DNA from: Deltaproteobacteria bacterium
GTDB taxonomy: Bacteria; Desulfobacterota; Desulfuromonadia; Geobacterales; Pseudopelobacteraceae
Length of the DNA: 64,000 nt
NCBI GenBank assembly: GCA_019162745.1
Contig: JAFLLC010000029.1
Coordinates: 62,001 to 126,000, forward strand
Reading direction: 5' to 3'
Shown here: piece after piece, positions 52,267 to 62,401 of the stretch
How the letters are laid out: each line of letters starts with the position of its first letter
Position numbering within the stretch: the first letter of the stretch is position 1
Position numbers and translations under genes: made by a program
Notes under the pieces: generated by a model
Database searches by the model: none
Seen by the model: the letters and a program-made list of their open reading frames with translations, nothing else
Told to the model about the DNA's origin: nothing

Positions 52267-53469
52267 CTACACAATATGAAAATTGGCATGAATGATTTTC
52301 TGCAGCTCTTCAATCTTCATCATGGCGTGACGGATCTGCTCACGTTCTGCAGTTGTAAGCTGGTAGGGGTTGAGATAGTACGAATCGTTCTGGATTCCTT
52401 TAAGGGCCTTGATCTGGATTAGAATCCGCTGTTTGGTCAGAATGTGATAGGCATCGATAAGATCGCCTGCGAAGGAGGAGGAAAAACTCCCTTCCGCTTC
52501 CAAAAGTGAAATGCGTTCCAACGTACTCGTAGCAGGAATACTCTGACTGATGGCCAGAATCCGGACATTCATAACAAGTGGAGCCCAGGCCAGTAATTTT
52601 AAATTAAATTCATCTTTATGTTCGCCGGTTCCCTCCGTCCAGATGCGCTTCATGAAGCCGAGGGCCAGCTTCATCTCAGTTGCCGCCTTTGCCATCCCCC
52701 AGAGAACCTGAAAATAATCCCGTTCCATATCTCTTATCATTTCGATCAATTCAGCCGCTAACCCCTGATCGCCGACAACATAGCGGGCATCAGAGAGTAC
52801 GATCAGATCCATGGTGTTCTTACCAAGATCCTCTACCTCGTACCTGACAATAGAAAAAAGTCGCTTGCGCCACTGACTGTACGAGCCGCGCCAGGTCTGA
52901 TTGATCGGCATGATACCGCCTGTGCAGCGTTTGAAACCCGCCTCTTCAAGGCTGTCGACCAAACGGGCAGCAAATTCTATAAAGTAGCCGTCAGCCTCTT
53001 CACCACCGCCATCGCCATAGACAAGCAGGTTGTCCTGATCTGTAATAAGAGTCTGCTCTTCACGGCCGTCACTCCCCATGCTGATAAGAGCAAAAGGTAC
53101 CGGCGGGCGCACGAATCCGGCTGAATCCATACCTGAAATAACCGTATCCATGACACGGGAAGACAGAAGATCCCGATATTCCGTACATGACCGGTGCAAT
53201 CCAATTACTGAAGGAACCACCAGGAAGCGTTCCATTTCAAGCTGGTTGAGGTTCTCATGGATAGTTTTAAGCGGGGGACCTTCTGTTTGTTGTATCGACG
53301 CAACAAGCTGCTCTTTTTTGCAACGCCACTCTACAATGCGGTTATTGTCATTTTCAACAGTTTCTAAAATCATCTGCAGGAACGCTTCAATATCTTCAAA
53401 CCGGCAATATCTCGTGATATCAGTCAGATCTGGTAATTCTGTGGGGGTATTGTACGCAGCCAGGCTCAT
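52267..53469 (-). CDS. DUF294-type nucleotidyltransferase domain protein
   Basis: PFALISMGSDGREEQTLITDQDNLLVYGDG (GSxGRxEQxxxTDQDN). Confidence 0.88.
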   Translation of the reverse strand: MSLAAYNTPTELPDLTDITRYCRFEDIEAFLQMILETVENDNNRIVEWRCKKEQLVASIQQTEGPPLKTIHENLNQLEMERFLVVPSVIGLHRSCTEYRDLLSSRVMDTVISGMDSAGFVRPPVPFALISMGSDGREEQTLITDQDNLLVYGDGGGEEADGYFIEFAARLVDSLEEAGFKRCTGGIMPINQTWRGSYSQWRKRLFSIVRYEVEDLGKNTMDLIVLSDARYVVGDQGLAAELIEMIRDMERDYFQVLWGMAKAATEMKLALGFMKRIWTEGTGEHKDEFNLKLLAWAPLVMNVRILAISQSIPATSTLERISLLEAEGSFSSSFAGDLIDAYHILTKQRILIQIKALKGIQNDSYYLNPYQLTTAEREQIRHAMMKIEELQKIIHANFHIV

Positions 53470-53718: not shown

Positions 53719-55377
53719 ATGTCCCAACAACTCACTCTCACCATCGGCAGCCTTCTGGACGACATGGCTCGCCGTTACCCCGACAATGAAGCGGTGGTTT
53801 ACCCTGAGCGCAACCTGCGCTATAACTACAAACAGTTCAACGACGCCTGCCGTCAGGCAGCCAAAGGCCTGTTGCGAATGGGGATCAAAAAGGGGGATAA
53901 TATAGCCGTCTGGGCCTACAACGTCCCTGAATGGCTGCTCCTTCAATTTGCCTCAGCCAAGATAGGTGCCGTCCTCGTTACCGTAAACACCAGTTATAAA
54001 TCAGCTGAACTTGAATATATACTGGGTCAATCCGACTCAACATCACTCTTTATGGTCGGCTCCTTCAAGGACACGGACTACGTCGAAACCCTCGCCAGCG
54101 TTGTTCCCGAACTGGTGACATCAGAACCGGGAAAACTGGTCAGCCCCAAACTGCCGTATCTGAAAAACATCATCTTCATCGGCGGAGAAACTCCCGCCGG
54201 CATGTTCAATTTCGACAGCATCATACAAATGGGGGAGGGGGTGCCAGACTCTGAACTGGACATCGTAGAAGCCACTCTCGACTGTTTAGATACCATTAAT
54301 ATGCAATACACCTCAGGCACTACCGGTTTTCCCAAAGGGGTCATGCTCACCCACTACAACCTGGTGAACAACGGTTTTCAGATCGGTGAATGTATGAAGT
54401 TTACCGAACATGACCGGCTCTGTATTCCAGTGCCGTTTTTCCACTGCTTCGGCTGTGTGCTCGGGGTGATGGTCTGTGTTACTCACGGCTCTACCATGGT
54501 GCCAGTGGAGATATTTGATCCGCTGAAAGTGCTGCAGACCATCGAGAAAGAGAAATGTACCGCCGTTCACGGTGTTCCCACCATGTTCATCGCCGAGCTT
54601 GAACATCCGGACTTTGCGAAATTCGATCTCTCCAGCATGAGAACCGGCATTATGGCCGGTTCAGTCTGCCCGATCGAGGTGATGAAGCGTGCCGTCAGGG
54701 ATATGCATGTCACTGAGATTACCAGCGTCTATGGGCAGACCGAGTCCTCACCGGGCATTACCCAGACCCGAACCGATGACGCCATCGAACTGAGGGTGGC
54801 GACAGTGGGTCGTGCTCTCCCCGGTGCAGAGGTAAAGATAGTGGACATCGAAACCGGAGCGACTCTGCCTCCCGGGAAGCAGGGGGAACTCTGTGCCCGT
54901 GGCTACATGGTAATGAAAGGTTACTACAAGATGCCGGAGGAAACTGCCAGTGTGATCGACGCTGACGGCTGGCTCCATACCGGTGACCTGGCCATTATGG
55001 ATGAAAACGGCTACTGCAAAATCACGGGACGCATCAAGCAGATGATTATCCGTGGCGGAGAAAACATCTACCCGCGTGAAATTGAAGAATTCCTTTATAC
55101 CCACCCGAAAGTCTCCGATATTCAGGTTTACGGTGTCCCTGACAGGAAGTACGGAGAACAGGTTATGGCCGCCATTATCCTCAAAAAGGGGGTGGAAATG
55201 ACCGAAGATGAAGTTCGCAGTTTCTGCCGGGGAAAGATTGCCAACTATAAAATTCCGAAATACATCAAATTTGTTGATGGCTATCCGATGACCGCCTCCG
55301 GCAAGATTCAAAAATTTAAAATGAGAGAAATGGCAATCAAGGAGCTGCAGCTGGAGGATATGGGCGCAACCGCCTAG
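53719..55377 (+). CDS. AMP-dependent acyl-CoA synthetase/ligase
   Basis: [79 protein letters not shown]. Confidence 0.95.
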
Positions 55378-55406: not shown

Positions 55407-55451
55407 TTTCATGGACCTTTAAGGTTTTTAAAACCTTAAAGGTCCATGAAA
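55407..55451. repeat. Perfect 22-bp-arm inverted repeat
   Basis: TTTCATGGACCTTTAAGGTTTT-T-AAAACCTTAAAGGTCCATGAAA. Confidence 0.95.
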
Positions 55452-55586
55452 CATAGTGTCATTTGATTGAATTTGTTTTTTGAACGTCAGTATCACCCCG
55501 CCTGAAATCAATATTTAACCAATTACATTCGAATACTTTCACAATATCCCCCGTAATCCACACCGTTTAAATACTCACTACAGTTT

Positions 55587-55755
55587 TTTGCAATTATGCA
55601 AAAACAAAAAGTCTATTCGCAGATATGCAAAGCTGATGCTTTTCTGTGTAAACGCCTCTATTCACCTGTAAAAACAGCGTATATAAGCCTGATGGTCCAC
55701 CTCTAAGTGGTGTCTGGAGACGGGTGTAGATCCAAAAGATTTGCATGTCTGCAAA
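55587..55755. promoter_or_regulatory. Cluster of three TTYGCA-N4-TGCAAA palindromes (candidate enhancer/UAS)
   Basis: TTTGCAATTATGCAAA (55587-55602), TTCGCAGATATGCAAA (55616-55631), TTTGCATGTCTGCAAA (55740-55755). Confidence 0.75.
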
Positions 55756-55830
55756 TGTATGCTTTTGAGATAAGTGGTGCCTAAGTTTATAACATGCTGT
55801 AATTCTTAATATAATTAACGCAGCTGCATT

Positions 55831-55847
55831 TTGGCACAGCATGTGCT
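55831..55847 (+). promoter_or_regulatory. Sigma-54 promoter
   Basis: TTGGCACAGCATGTGCT: GG (55833-55834)-N10-GC (55845-55846), perfect TTGGCAC -24 element, 36 nt upstream of ATG 55882. Confidence 0.83.
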
Positions 55848-55881
55848 GTATACACTATGAAATATGTCAATTGAGGGAAAC

Positions 55882-56076
55882 ATGATATCTGAAACTATCT
55901 GCCCATTTTATGGAAAAAACGATGATCAATGTGATGTCGGATGCGGTTATATCTCCCCGCATGACGTGAATATGATCATCCGCTACTGTCATGGGCGTCA
56001 TATACACTGCATCAAATACCTCGAGCTGTCTGATCGCTTTCCTGTGGAAAGCCGGTGCAGCGAAGTAACATATTAA
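55882..56076 (+). CDS. Small cysteine-rich protein (6 Cys)
   Basis: MISETICPFYGKNDDQCDVGCGYISPHDVNMIIRYCHGRHIHCIKYLELSDRFPVESRCSEVTY; GAGGGAAAC RBS; the ORF-track start 55864 is less likely. Confidence 0.75.
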   Translation: MISETICPFYGKNDDQCDVGCGYISPHDVNMIIRYCHGRHIHCIKYLELSDRFPVESRCSEVTY

Positions 56077-56107
56077 TAAACCTTACAAGGTTAAAAGGGA
56101 GAACGAT

Positions 56108-56230
56108 ATGCTGTATCACTTCGCACTTAATTATAGTCACATAAATATTGCACCGGCCGTATTTATCAGCACACTTTTTGTTGTACTACTAATTGTCAAG
56201 GAGAGAAAAAATGAGCGAAAGAGAGCTTGA
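56108..56230 (+). CDS. 40-aa small membrane protein (unannotated sORF)
   Basis: MLYHFALNYSHINIAPAVFISTLFVVLLIVKERKNERKRA; GGGAG RBS; overlaps the next start by 20 nt. Confidence 0.6.
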   Translation: MLYHFALNYSHINIAPAVFISTLFVVLLIVKERKNERKRA

Positions 56231-56462
56231 ACTACTGAATAGAATAGAAGAACTGGAACGCCATACCTGGCGAAACAGTGCCATTCTTCGTTCGGTTGCC
56301 ATGGTAGCCTTCACAGCAATAATTGGATTTGTGATCGCTTCCGGTGTTGTGGGTGGTGGCCATGGCAGCCACTGGTCCGGCCCGGCCTGGAATACAATGT
56401 GGCTGTACGGCCTGTTTGCCGCTAACGCGGTGTCGATGTTTTGGACCACTCACAAGGAATAG
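56211..56462 (+). CDS. Small membrane protein with N-terminal coiled-coil
   Basis: MSERELELLNRIEELERHTWRNSAILRSVAMVAFTAIIGFVIASGVVGGGHGSHWSGPAWNTMWLYGLFAANAVSMFWTTHKE; AAGGAG RBS just upstream. Confidence 0.75.
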   Translation: MSERELELLNRIEELERHTWRNSAILRSVAMVAFTAIIGFVIASGVVGGGHGSHWSGPAWNTMWLYGLFAANAVSMFWTTHKE

Positions 56463-56475
56463 GGAGAATACGCTC

Positions 56476-57525
56476 ATGCCAATGAAAATTACTCATGCAA
56501 TTATGCTTCTGGCGGTCTGCGTTATCTGCGCAGCCTTTAATATGCAGCTCTTCGGTGGTCTGGACGAAATGATGGGTGACCAGTACTGGGTCATTGACAC
56601 GACACAGGGCGACCACGGTTGGTACGCCATGGGTCTCCTGCCGCACGTACAAAAAGTGCCTAAAGATGTAGTCAAGGCTGCTAATACCGACGTCGACCCG
56701 ACCAACAACTATGCAATATACTCACAGAGCGGCGACTTTGCCGGTAAGTCGGTCTACGGCATCTGCTTCGGTATTCCCTTGATCATGTACCTGATCTGGT
56801 TCGCTTTCATCATCGGCTTTCCGGACAGAGTTGATCCATACCTCCTGCCGCGCAAAATATTTACCATCGCAGTCATTATCTCCTGCTCAGTGATTGCCAA
56901 TCTGTTCCTTATGCGTATTGCCGGCGACTTTGCCCGCGACCCGATGGCCCGCATCGCCAATGTGGCGGGTAACCATGCTTCGCTCCTGTTTCATAACGCC
57001 GGTATCTGGTTCGCCATCCTTTTCTCGGCACTCGGCACCCACAGCCATTCATTTGATGAGGTTAAAGCGCCAGACAGCCGTAACTGGCAGACACAAGCAA
57101 ACGAAAAATTCAACTGGATGTTTACATTGCTGGGTGTCGTGACCGTACTTGAGGTCGTACTGGTTAAAAACAAGCTGGCTTTACCGGATGCGGCTGTGGA
57201 CTACTCAGTCTGGGTTATCTGGGTGGTTATTTTCATGCGTATGTACGGTTTCTCCCCCAAGTACTGGATCAAGCGCCCTACCGGCATCGCCATCATGGTC
57301 GTCGGCACGTTGCTGACGCTGCCAGTGTTCTATCTGCTTGAGAGGATGACAGGCACACTGGGAGCCGGCTTTGCCTCGCCGATTCTGGCCAAGGCGCTTG
57401 GTGCCGAAAACCAGAATGTTGGTCTTTCGCTGATGGTGTCGATCTACCTTGTGTTCTGGATGGAATTTGCAACCGCCATCCGTATGAACGGCCCGGATAA
57501 GAAATTTGCGGTTCAGAAATCTTAG
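56476..57525 (+). CDS. Multi-TM membrane protein of unknown function
   Basis: ~350 aa, ~8 hydrophobic segments, conserved-looking H/D/R residues; start MPMKITHAIMLLAV at 56476; RBS AGGGAG. Confidence 0.8.
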   Translation: MPMKITHAIMLLAVCVICAAFNMQLFGGLDEMMGDQYWVIDTTQGDHGWYAMGLLPHVQKVPKDVVKAANTDVDPTNNYAIYSQSGDFAGKSVYGICFGIPLIMYLIWFAFIIGFPDRVDPYLLPRKIFTIAVIISCSVIANLFLMRIAGDFARDPMARIANVAGNHASLLFHNAGIWFAILFSALGTHSHSFDEVKAPDSRNWQTQANEKFNWMFTLLGVVTVLEVVLVKNKLALPDAAVDYSVWVIWVVIFMRMYGFSPKYWIKRPTGIAIMVVGTLLTLPVFYLLERMTGTLGAGFASPILAKALGAENQNVGLSLMVSIYLVFWMEFATAIRMNGPDKKFAVQKS

Positions 57526-57601
57526 GTTCTTTAATTGTAAAAAGTAACTCCGTTAAATAAATTATCCTGTTTATAATGGCTAGCCCAGAGGGGATTAAAT
57601 A

Positions 57602-58963
57602 ATGACTGATATCAAGAATAAGGGTTGGACCGTAGTCTCTGCAGGTCTTGCCATCAATCTGGCGCTTGGTGTGCTTTATGCCTGGAGCGTGTTTAAAGGT
57701 GCCATCAAGGCATCAATAGAAAAGGGTGGTCCGGACGCGTTTCAGTGGGATATTGCTTCCATCAACGACCCTTATGCCGTCTGCTGCCTGGCCTTTGCCT
57801 TCTCAATGATTTTGGCCGGCAAGTGTCAGGACAAAATCGGCCCGGCCCGTACCGCACTTATCGGCGGTGTGCTGGTAGGGGCAGGTTTCATGCTGATGGC
57901 ATTTTCCAGCACCTATATGTCCTGGGTTCTCGGTTTTGGCATCCTTGCGGGTAGTGGCTTCGGTTTTGGTTACTCCGCCGCCACTCCGCCTGCACTGAAA
58001 TGGTTTTCACCCTCAAAGACCGGCCTTATCGCAGGAATTGTTGTGGGTGGCTTCGGAATAGCGCCGGTCTACATTGCACCGCTTGCATCCTATCTGATCG
58101 GCGCCTTTGGCATCCCAAAGGCCATGATGTTCCTTGGGATCGGATTCACGATAGTTGTCTGTAGCCTTTCTTTTGTTCTTGCCAACCCTCCGCAGGGTTT
58201 TGTGCCGGCGGAACCTGCTGATCCAGGCCCTCTGGCCAAGCTGAATGCTTCCAAGCCGGCCGTAAATGCTTCGGTCAGTGAAATGCTGCGTAACTACAAA
58301 TTTTATGTACTCTGGGTAACCTTTTTCATCGGTTCCGGGGCCGGATTAATGGTTATCGGCAGTGTTGCTGGCTTGGCCAAGAGCAGTATGGGGTCTATGG
58401 CCTTCGTCGCTGTTGCAATTATGGCCATCGGAAATGCCGCTGGCCGTGTTGTGGCTGGGGTGCTATCCGACAAGATCGGACGACGTGCCACTCTTTTCAT
58501 CATGCTGTCGTTGCAGGCTGTGATGATGTTCATTGCCATGATGGTTATCAACTCCGGTAGTGCAGTACTGCTGGTACTGCTGGCTTCTTTTATCGGCTTC
58601 AACTACGGATCCAATCTTTGTCTCTTCCCCTCCTTCGCCAAGGACTACTGGGGAACAAAAAACTATGGCCTTAATTACGGCGTCCTCTTTACCGCCTGGG
58701 GTGTCGGCGGTTCCGTTATGGGCAAGGTGTCCGAGATGATCAATGCCCAGCCTGGCGGTCTTGGCAAATCGTTCATGCTGTCCGGACTTCTGCTGGCGGG
58801 CGGAGCAGCAATGACCATTTTCCTCGCTGAACTCAAGCCTGTTGCCGCCAATGAAACAGAACCTTCCCAGTGGAAAGAATTCTGGGCTGAGTTTATGCTG
58901 GGTGCCAAAGTTTTCGTCGGATTCGAGCAGGCTCATATTCGTGTGCCACGCAAAATAATGTAA
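57602..58963 (+). CDS. MFS transporter, oxalate/formate antiporter (OFA) family-like
   Basis: GWTVVSAGLAINLALGVLYAWSVFKGAI...GSGFGFGYSAATPPALKWFSPSKTGLIAGIVVGGFGIAPVYIAPLASYLI. Confidence 0.92.
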   Translation: MTDIKNKGWTVVSAGLAINLALGVLYAWSVFKGAIKASIEKGGPDAFQWDIASINDPYAVCCLAFAFSMILAGKCQDKIGPARTALIGGVLVGAGFMLMAFSSTYMSWVLGFGILAGSGFGFGYSAATPPALKWFSPSKTGLIAGIVVGGFGIAPVYIAPLASYLIGAFGIPKAMMFLGIGFTIVVCSLSFVLANPPQGFVPAEPADPGPLAKLNASKPAVNASVSEMLRNYKFYVLWVTFFIGSGAGLMVIGSVAGLAKSSMGSMAFVAVAIMAIGNAAGRVVAGVLSDKIGRRATLFIMLSLQAVMMFIAMMVINSGSAVLLVLLASFIGFNYGSNLCLFPSFAKDYWGTKNYGLNYGVLFTAWGVGGSVMGKVSEMINAQPGGLGKSFMLSGLLLAGGAAMTIFLAELKPVAANETEPSQWKEFWAEFMLGAKVFVGFEQAHIRVPRKIM

Positions 58964-58994: not shown

Positions 58995-59030
58995 AAAACA
59001 AAGCCCGGAGTTAGTCCGGGCTTTGTTTTT
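58995..59030. terminator. Bidirectional rho-independent terminator between convergent MFS and response regulator genes
   Basis: AAAACAAAGCCCGGAgttagTCCGGGCTTTGTTTTT. Confidence 0.95.
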
Positions 59031-59053: not shown

Positions 59054-60445
59054 TCAGTAATTTTCTCTTTTGATGCCGTACCTCTTAATCTTTCGATACA
59101 TGGTTGCCATGTTCATACCGGCTTCACGCGCAGCCAGATCGATGTTGCCGCTGTGCCGTTTCAGAAGTCCTGTCAATAAATCTGCTTCAAAACGCTCCAA
59201 AGCCGTTGTAAAAGGCACGTCATCGTTCACCAGCTGCGCTTCGGATGAAACAGCACACCTGTCAGGGTCAGCCTCAATAAACTGAGCTAATGTGTCTTTG
59301 GATATATATTCTCCAGTTTCTATTGCCATACAGGCTTCAATGACATTTTTCAGCTGCCGGATATTCCCTGGCCACCCATACTCGCTCAAAATCTTCATGG
59401 CTTCGCTCTCAAATCCTTTGATCGCAGTTTTAAACTTCTGGTTCTGAAGGAGTATAAAGTGGGCAGCAAGAAGCGGGATATCGCTGCGGCGTTCCCGCAG
59501 GGGGGGGAGATGAATTGTCACAACATTCAGGCGATAGTAAAGGTCTTCACGGAAAACTCCTTGTTTTATAGCTTCTTTAATATCCGAGTTGGTAGCCGAG
59601 AGAATCCTTACATCCACACGTGTAGGGGTCGTATCTCCGAGACGGTTGAATTCCTTCTCCTGGAGAAAGCGGAGCAGCGTTTTCTGAACATTCATCGGCA
59701 GGTTGCCAACTTCATCCAGAAAAAGGGTGCCGCCATTGGCCGCCTCCAAAAGCCCGCAACGGTTCTCCGTTGCTCCGGTGAAGGCTCCTTTTTTATAGCC
59801 GAACAGTTCACTTTCCAACAGATTTTCCGGTAAAGCGCCGCAGTTGATGGCAACAAATCTTTTCTCATGACGTGGAGAGTTGTAATGGATCGCCTGTGCG
59901 ATCAACTCTTTACCGGTTCCGGATTCACCGGTAACAAGGATTGAGGTATCCCTGACGGCAATTTTGCCGACACGCTCCAAAACACTCTTCAACCCTTCGC
60001 AGGCTCCTATGATGTTTTCAAAACGAAACTTATTTTCAAGTTCTGCCCGCAGTTCGCGGTTTTCTTCGAGCAACTGTCGTTGCTGCAGGGCATTTTTTAC
60101 TCTGTAAACAAGCTCGTCAGGCTCGAACGGCTTGGTAAGCATGTCGTATGCACCCTTACGAAGTGCCTGGATTGACATCTCAACAGTTGCGTATGCGGTG
60201 ATCATGATGACCGGAATATCATGCTGTTTGGCTTTAATAGCCTGCAATACCTCAATTCCACTCATACCGGGCATTTTAATGTCGCTGATGACCAGATCCC
60301 ACGCGGCGGCCTTGAACTCTTCTACCGCTTGGCGGGGCGACGTGAAGGATTGCGTCAAATATCCGTGGTCGAGCAGAATCTGCTCCATCATACGGCAAAG
60401 TCCCGCTTCATTATCAATAAGTAGAATACGTTTTTTATCCCCCAT
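59054..60445 (-). CDS. NtrC-family sigma-54-dependent response regulator
   Basis: REC domain, GESGTGKELIAQAIHYNSPR, GAFTGATENRCGLLEAANGGTLFLDEVGNLP, C-terminal Fis-type HTH. Confidence 0.97.
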   Translation of the reverse strand: MGDKKRILLIDNEAGLCRMMEQILLDHGYLTQSFTSPRQAVEEFKAAAWDLVISDIKMPGMSGIEVLQAIKAKQHDIPVIMITAYATVEMSIQALRKGAYDMLTKPFEPDELVYRVKNALQQRQLLEENRELRAELENKFRFENIIGACEGLKSVLERVGKIAVRDTSILVTGESGTGKELIAQAIHYNSPRHEKRFVAINCGALPENLLESELFGYKKGAFTGATENRCGLLEAANGGTLFLDEVGNLPMNVQKTLLRFLQEKEFNRLGDTTPTRVDVRILSATNSDIKEAIKQGVFREDLYYRLNVVTIHLPPLRERRSDIPLLAAHFILLQNQKFKTAIKGFESEAMKILSEYGWPGNIRQLKNVIEACMAIETGEYISKDTLAQFIEADPDRCAVSSEAQLVNDDVPFTTALERFEADLLTGLLKRHSGNIDLAAREAGMNMATMYRKIKRYGIKRENY

Positions 60446-62401
60446 CTAAAGTTCCTCTCGCTCTGTTGGCAACGTGACGGTAACGCGTGTACCACTGCCG
60501 ACAGTGCTGTCGATATGGATCTCGCCATGGTGCTGTTCTATGATCTGCCGGGTGATTGCCAGGCCAAGTCCCGTACCGCTGGCTTTGGTCGTGTAGAATG
60601 GCTCGAAAATCTTTTCCAGACTTTCTGCCGGAATACCAGCGCCGCTGTCGCTGAATAGTATGTTTACATGCGTGGAATCAGCCGCTTCTGTGCTGACGGT
60701 GAGGTTTCCACCATCCGGCATGGCTCCTCCGGCGTTAAGGATCAGATTTATAGCGACCTGGCGCATCTGGTCACCATCCAGTTCCACCAGAGGCAGATCG
60801 TTTGCGAAGGAGGTGCTGACCGTTACTCCGCGCATATCGGTATGGTTGGCGGCAAAATCAACAATCTGCTGCAGAAGACTATTGAGATCTGTTGGTTCGA
60901 GAGTCGGGCGTGGCGTACGGGCGTAAGATAGCAGGTCCTGAACAATTTTTTTGCACCGCTTGCTTTCCCGCTTTATTTCGTGGATGTACTGATAGTTGGG
61001 GTTGTCTTCACCCATCTTGCTTTCAAGATAGCCTGCATATCCGAGTATAACCCCAAGCGGGTTGTTTATCTCATGGGCGACACCTGATGACAACACACCC
61101 AGCGATGCCATTTTGCACTGCTGGGCCAGATTCGATTCAAGGGCCTTGTTACGCTGAATAATATCGGTCATGCGATTAAAGGCACTTCCCATCTCGGCCA
61201 GTTCATCTTCACCGCTGACGGTGATCCGTTCGTCCAGATTGCCACGTTTAATACTTTTTATGACTGTCATCATGTGTGTGATCGGGCTGGTGATAATTCT
61301 TGAGACCTGGACAACAAGAGCCGTTGCTGCCGCACCTACCACAAGTATCAGAAGCGTCATGATAAGGAAAATATATGTTTTGATCTTGTTTGCTTCCTGA
61401 TAAAATTCATCCTCGTACGATCCGGCAGCAACAATCCAGTCCCATGGTTCAAAGTATTCATACCGTACAATTTTCATCCGGGCGGCTTTATCACCACTGT
61501 TTTTCCAGGGATAGCGAATCCAGCCGCTTTTATTAGTGCACATCTCCCTGATAAAGCTGTTTCCATCCAGATCCTTCTCGTTGATCCGGTTTTTCCCTTC
61601 GGAATCGGGGTGGATCGTAAAGGTGCCTTTGCTGTCCATACAAAATATATAGCCGGTCGTACCGACTTTTTTGGCTCGTATGCTCTCTTTAAGTTTAGCA
61701 AATGCCTGTCGCTCAAAGGCGGCATCTCCGATAGCTTCACTCGGATAACTGCCGGATGCAATTATCCAGTCCCATTCGCGGAAATATTTGTAGGCAACAA
61801 CTTTGGTGCGCGGTTTTTTATCCCCCAAGACCGCATTGCGCCAGGGATAGGTTATGAACAGTGTTTCGCCCGGTTTGCTGGCCCGGGCTGCCGCACACAT
61901 TTCACGAATGAAGTAGCGGCCGTTCTCATCTTGCTCGTTAAAAACATTTTCACCTTCACGAGCGATATGGGCCTGAAGAACACCACGGCTGGTCATGGCG
62001 TATATATAGCCGCTTTCGCCGACGTTTATTTTCCTCAACGCCAGTCGTGCTTCATTTTTGGCTGTTTTCAGATCAATTTTTTCCTGTGCATACAGGTGGT
62101 TCTCGGCGGCAACAAGGTTATAGGAAAGTGCGGTCAACGTCGCCAGTTCATTGTTGAGATTCTGAGCTTTGTCCTGTTTGTAGACCTGGAACTGCTGGTA
62201 GTGGGAATTGAGGAGGTCGATGCAGAATGCGGAAAGATGCTGAAGGTCGTCCTTGCTGGTTTTGGTTATGCCCAGATAGGCCTGCTGGTTGGCGATGAGG
62301 CCGATTACTCCGGCAACGACAAAAATTGGAATTATAACAAGCGGCAGGACCAGCGCCAGCAATTTACCGCGAAGTTTGAATTTATTGAGGAATGAATACA
62401 T
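60446..62401 (-). CDS. Sensor histidine kinase with tandem Cache-like sensor domains and HAMP
   Basis: Two related sensor repeats, HAMP, LGVLSSGVAHEINNPLGVILGYAGYLE (H-box), DSGAGIPAESLEKIFEPFYTTKASGTGLGLAI. Confidence 0.95.
   Translation of the reverse strand: MYSFLNKFKLRGKLLALVLPLVIIPIFVVAGVIGLIANQQAYLGITKTSKDDLQHLSAFCIDLLNSHYQQFQVYKQDKAQNLNNELATLTALSYNLVAAENHLYAQEKIDLKTAKNEARLALRKINVGESGYIYAMTSRGVLQAHIAREGENVFNEQDENGRYFIREMCAAARASKPGETLFITYPWRNAVLGDKKPRTKVVAYKYFREWDWIIASGSYPSEAIGDAAFERQAFAKLKESIRAKKVGTTGYIFCMDSKGTFTIHPDSEGKNRINEKDLDGNSFIREMCTNKSGWIRYPWKNSGDKAARMKIVRYEYFEPWDWIVAAGSYEDEFYQEANKIKTYIFLIMTLLILVVGAAATALVVQVSRIITSPITHMMTVIKSIKRGNLDERITVSGEDELAEMGSAFNRMTDIIQRNKALESNLAQQCKMASLGVLSSGVAHEINNPLGVILGYAGYLESKMGEDNPNYQYIHEIKRESKRCKKIVQDLLSYARTPRPTLEPTDLNSLLQQIVDFAANHTDMRGVTVSTSFANDLPLVELDGDQMRQVAINLILNAGGAMPDGGNLTVSTEAADSTHVNILFSDSGAGIPAESLEKIFEPFYTTKASGTGLGLAITRQIIEQHHGEIHIDSTVGSGTRVTVTLPTEREEL

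Follow-up and report, generated by a model that had tools for sequence, protein, structure and literature searches.

We describe a locus in a 64,000-nucleotide stretch of Geobacterales DNA (hereafter the window) that probably forms a regulon for sensing and taking up acetate-class monocarboxylates, one that includes a putative complex of three membrane proteins, M349, P83 and TM40. Taken by itself, the regulon part of this reading is very probable on the sequence evidence; a two-component system dedicated to short monocarboxylates, with acetate the likeliest of them, would have its chief target here. Our best reading of M349-P83-TM40 is a carrier, or the partner of a carrier, for the same acids. 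More tentatively, the three may be subunits of an undescribed monocarboxylate carrier family, nearly confined to the Geobacter order and induced by an acetate-class sensor via a dedicated sigma-54 operator.

Gene content and order are as the initial annotation had them, with every gene it listed found in place. The operon, on the forward strand, opens with a small Cys protein of 64 aa (55882-56076). Its conserved start is 55882, not 55864, and of the six cysteines first counted only five (Cys 7, 17, 21, 36 and 43) are invariant among orthologues. TM40 (56108-56230), a small single-TM protein with a basic C-terminal tail, comes next, and its stop overlaps the start of P83 by 20 bp, an arrangement that recurs among TM40 orthologues. 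The pN/pS of TM40 is 0.37 in its own frame and 0.82 and 1.32 in the other two; judged by its coding sequence, TM40 is a genuine gene, evolving as a protein. Constraint is very strong on P83 (56211-56462; pN/pS 0.09), an 83-aa membrane protein with a near-invariant WSGPAWNTMWLYGLFAANAVSMFW segment. The run is completed by M349 (56476-57525), a 349-aa, eight-TM protein of an orphan family, and by an OFA-like, SfMCT-type monocarboxylate transporter of the MFS (57602-58963). On the reverse strand, an NtrC-type response regulator (59054-60445) and a histidine kinase with two periplasmic Cache (sCache_2-like) modules (60446-62401) converge on the operon across a shared bidirectional hairpin terminator, as had been proposed. 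The hairpin, recognised by eye at about 58995-59030 between the transporter and regulator genes, reads AAAACAAAGCCCGGA-GTTAG-TCCGGGCTTTGTTTT.

On the other side of the operon, an acyl-CoA ligase gene (53719-55377; NCBIfam subfamily NF009233, 852.5 bits) lies upstream, and a DUF294 gene is found nearby (52267-53469). A perfect palindrome, CATGGACCTTTAAGGTTTTTAAAACCTTAAAGGTCCATG (55410-55448), sits between the ligase gene and the operon and occurs once within the window. The ligase, likewise upstream in several relatives (L070, L072, L079-L081, L086, L090 and L097), is a possible activating enzyme for the imported acid.

A sigma-54 -24/-12 promoter, TTGGCACAGCATGTGCT, occupies positions 55831-55847 on the forward strand. 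A sigma-54 match is kept upstream of 71 of the 77 orthologous operons, where about 2.6 would be expected from shuffled sequence, in support of the sigma-54 control first suggested. Farther upstream lie three dyads: TTTGCAATTATGCAAA (55587-55602, exact) and TTCGCAGATATGCAAA (55616-55631, one mismatch), both conserved in position in orthologous operons, and TTTGCATGTCTGCAAA (55740-55755, exact), about 90 bp upstream of the promoter. Their shared pattern, TTTGCA-N4-TGCAAA with a variable centre, is our candidate operator, present in up to three dyads per core upstream region. The exact form occurs in 64/77 core upstream regions (0.04 expected from shuffled sequence), and both copies found in the 4.5-Mb window genome stand before the operon. 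Across the order, exact dyads were found in 66 of 77 genomes, with a reversed control pattern near zero. Allowing one mismatch in the window's own genome gave 19 matches against 11 for the reversed control, and we therefore restricted the genome-wide evidence to exact copies.

Away from the core, dyads are followed in most loci examined by orthologues of the MFS transporter or by SatP/YaaH genes. Such sites usually have a sigma-54 match as well, and where one was found the dyads lie about 205-245 and 100-110 bp upstream of it, a layout near-identical to that of the window. A minority of dyads have no assignable target (L151, L156-L158, L180 and L200, plus L184, L188 and L196). The last three are orthologous intergenic exact dyads near oxidoreductase-like membrane genes, with no sigma-54 match, and possibly mark either a further regulon site or another use of the dyad. 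One genome has a dyad before the kinase gene as well (L215). The regulator itself has the hallmarks of an NtrC-type sigma-54 activator, namely a receiver, an AAA+ domain with GAFTGA, a Fis-type HTH, and dyads with a -24/-12 promoter at its target, and TTTGCA-N4-TGCAAA is likely to be its operator.

What the kinase senses can be narrowed from its periplasmic half. Its second Cache module matches 2QHK/4EXO, 5G4Y and 4K08 by sequence; the ligand is acetate in the 4K08 structure and pyruvate in 4EXO, while the ligands of PscD (5G4Y) are acetate, glycolate, propionate and pyruvate, and propionate too has been seen in a structure of this kind (PMC5062169, PMC3831638). The Tyr, His, Tyr, Trp and Lys that contact the carboxylate in the single-Cache C2/C3 sensors PscD and Adeh_3718 are all present in the window kinase, and they are invariant in both Cache modules of 35/35 kinase orthologues. 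Unlike those sensors, the window modules are in tandem and on a histidine kinase, not a chemoreceptor, and one pocket Trp is Tyr or Phe. Given the invariant contact residues and the sensor matches, a C2/C3 monocarboxylate is our best guess for the ligand, and the pocket could be compatible with acetate, propionate, pyruvate or lactate.

Carboxylate carriers under Cache-kinase/NtrC/sigma-54 control are already known, with DctBD, MifSR and the Desulfovibrio lactate regulators as examples. In DctB-DctD, a sensor kinase and an NtrC-type regulator turn on a carboxylate transporter. MifS-MifR is reported to be built alike (PMC4482717); relative to these two systems, the one in the window has another ligand class, and its regulon adds an undescribed four-gene membrane/Cys module. 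The Desulfovibrio sigma-54 lactate regulators are similar in being two-component enhancer-binding proteins over lactate metabolism and transport genes, but their regulon content is unlike that described here, and the TGCAAA operator was not found in the text of that paper (PMC4641369). The novelty lies in the operator, in the regulon and in a membrane module that is strongly conserved but belongs to no described family. A search of the open-access literature found no description of the operon or operator.

The genes that the dyads precede can be named in part. The window MFS protein, first called OFA-type, is an OFA-like MFS carrier, but at 216.5 bits it falls below the TIGR00890 (OFA) cut-off of 374.85 and is instead assigned to SfMCT (NCBIfam NF049980; 404.8 bits, cut-off 320). 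SfMCT (PDB 6HCL, 6G9X) is an L-lactate transporter in which Arg280, Asn276, Tyr119 and Tyr331 bind the carboxylate and His250 is the proposed proton acceptor (PMC6573034). Equivalents of Tyr119, Asn276, Arg280, Tyr331 and Leu28 are kept in 40/40 MFS orthologues, whereas His250 is Ser in all 40; in the window protein Leu145 is also Phe and Phe335 is Leu, so that the pocket is reshaped. Because of the Ser at position 250, we claim neither L-lactate specificity nor the same proton coupling for this transporter, which could carry acetate, propionate, lactate or pyruvate.

In Geomonas and its relatives the gene of the SatP/YaaH acetate transporter (PF01184) has this operator upstream; SatP is unrelated in sequence to M349 and absent from the window genome. 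An MFS orthologue, SatP or both are present in 47 of 50 core-positive genomes, and neither in three. With a Cache pocket on the sensor and both SfMCT-type and SatP transporters under a shared operator, the theme of carboxylate sensing and uptake put forward in the initial annotation appears to be well founded. In nearly all SatP loci of the regulon, SatP is followed by a conserved, convergently oriented membrane ORF of 153 aa (L050 and L090, about -1650 to -1190 from M349; L185-L187, L189, L190, L194 and L197-L199).

M349 was found in 50 of 58 near relatives, in single copy and at 74-96% identity, one of these genes being cut by a contig end; its apparent absence from G003 is due to a contig end (L214). 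It is present in 82/195 genomes of the class and, among the phylum sample, in one genus only outside it, and a search for distant relatives in class and phylum returned very strong matches or none. Gene order was compared over 80 named loci, mostly MAGs and including Geomonas, Geotalea, Citrifermentans, Trichlorobacter, Pelotalea and Geobacter argillaceus. P83 stands directly upstream of M349 in 77/77 loci and the Cys gene upstream in 74 of these 77, while TM40 is recognisable in most loci and not in Geomonas. The expected conservation of the neighbourhood was seen for Cys, P83 and M349; the MFS gene is directly downstream of M349 in only 28/74 loci, and on this synteny we rejected it as a core member. 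The conserved core is Cys-TM40-P83-M349, with the MFS gene an optional neighbour.

The kinase and regulator genes lie within 10 kb of the core in 28 of 55 loci. In Geobacteraceae the usual order is kinase-regulator-Cys-TM40-P83-M349, all co-directional, and in a genus of another class (L145 and L146) kinase, regulator, Cys, P83, M349 and MFS genes form one co-directional run, which suggests transfer as a unit. Downstream of the core, Geomonas and Citrifermentans loci (L127-L130, L132, L133, L135, L137-L139 and L148) carry two ActP-like sodium:solute symporter genes and a DUF294 gene, a set placed at +2.2 and +6.0 kb from M349.

Searches of Pfam and NCBIfam returned no match to M349 above threshold, and no PDB relative was found by sequence or profile, bearing out the initial impression of a protein without a recognised family; the Pfam hits MSL2_3 and SYS1 were rejected as sub-threshold matches of membrane composition. 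Hydropathy gives eight helices. The first loop, of 68 residues, is acidic, aromatic-rich and outside by the positive-inside rule, and conserved charges are buried at R147, E226, R255, E289 and E330. Helices, loop and charges of this sort are typical of ion-coupled carriers, though they prove nothing. An AlphaFold2 model made with 61 orthologues is poor (mean pLDDT 54) and serves only for a rough helix count, which hydropathy repeats; its fold search against the PDB gave no match with E below 0.001. With a poor model and an empty fold search, the carrier reading rests on context and the conserved buried charges.

The same context would also suit an accessory complex, one in which M349-P83-TM40 is not itself a carrier but keeps the MFS or SatP transporter stable, energises it or gates it. 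The regulon is shared with two unrelated transporter types, the MFS gene does directly follow the core in the 28 loci counted above, and SatP lies upstream of the core in loci without the MFS gene. Most core operons, however, have no transporter next to them, and the three core-positive genomes with neither type leave such an accessory without either partner. A single accessory for two unrelated folds would be unusual. M349 is also a large protein, and it and P83 are conserved more strongly than the rest of the system. We consider this reading unlikely, if credible. The small proteins may, as the initial annotation inferred, work with the MFS transporter, but in most orthologous core operons that gene is not adjacent, some genomes have SatP in its stead, and P83-M349 is kept in genomes that have no kinase.

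The direction of transport raises another alternative, that the system serves export or tolerance of short acids, the sensor detecting accumulated acid and the carriers running outward. MFS monocarboxylate carriers and SatP can transport in both directions, and several of the hosts (Pelotalea, Trichlorobacter) live by fermentation or syntrophy, but the operon is also present in Geomonas and Citrifermentans, which are respiratory. YaaH-type (SatP) genes, moreover, were up-regulated in several Geobacter populations with acetate and propionate as carbon source (PMC6246609), which argues for uptake and makes export improbable.

Patterns of loss separate the signalling genes from the membrane proteins. 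Of 58 genomes, 46 have both the kinase and the Cys protein, 10 have neither and 2 have just one of them (46/1/1/10); the Fisher p of 2e-9 is indicative only, because the genomes are related. Three genomes of one family (G037, G043 and G045) are without kinase and Cys protein and have 0-1 exact dyad, yet keep P83-M349, from which we infer that the Cys protein belongs to the signalling branch and that P83-M349 can stand alone. Together with the shared operator, this co-loss backs the adjoining kinase and regulator as the probable controllers, as first supposed. Extra Cys-protein copies (L181, 4553-4723; L182, 8243-8428; L194, 2922-3062) occur after kinase-regulator genes that have dyads of their own, by themselves with a dyad, or beside SatP, which suggests that the Cys protein acts on the signalling side and not for the membrane complex.

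Some kinases, DctB and DcuS among them, are controlled by transporters, and M349-P83-TM40 might similarly be a co-sensor or signalling partner controlling the kinase. It adjoins the kinase and regulator genes and is apparently co-regulated by them, and TM40 and P83 are small, like many modulators. A role of this sort is nonetheless highly improbable, given that P83-M349 is kept in genomes from which the kinase and the Cys protein are gone, together with most or even all of the operators, and that it is the Cys protein, not M349, that follows the kinase. The membrane redox (electron-transfer) module also raised in the initial annotation is scarcely credible: the hosts are related to metal reducers and a Cys-rich small protein is present, but M349 has no haem-binding CxxCH, its single invariant in-membrane His (H173) leaves no bis-His haem site visible, no flavin or quinone family match was found, and those co-regulated genes that can be assigned encode carboxylate carriers.

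Promoter, operators, regulon membership, sensor-pocket residues and conservation support, at the level of sequence, the following scheme for the regulon. The Cache kinase would bind a C2/C3 carboxylate in the periplasm and phosphorylate the NtrC-type regulator, which would in turn bind directly to TTTGCA-N4-TGCAAA dyads, two or three in number, that lie some 90-110 and 205-245 bp before the sigma-54 promoter. So bound, it would turn on the window operon and, elsewhere, separate MFS-transporter copies or a SatP-type acetate transporter. M349, P83 and TM40 would form one inner-membrane complex, which most likely acts alongside the MFS or SatP carrier as a proton-coupled carrier of these acids.

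In aquifers, the respiration of Fe(III), U(VI) and electrodes by Geobacter-type bacteria is governed by the supply of acetate, and how these bacteria sense acetate and switch on its uptake is poorly described. Here, a Geobacter-type sensor pair appears to respond to small acids such as acetate by switching on known acid transporters together with unrecognised conserved membrane proteins, which probably help in the uptake of the same acids. With one sensor pair, one operator and few genes, the question of acetate sensing becomes directly testable, and the locus points to a membrane complex that evolves very slowly and has no known relatives.
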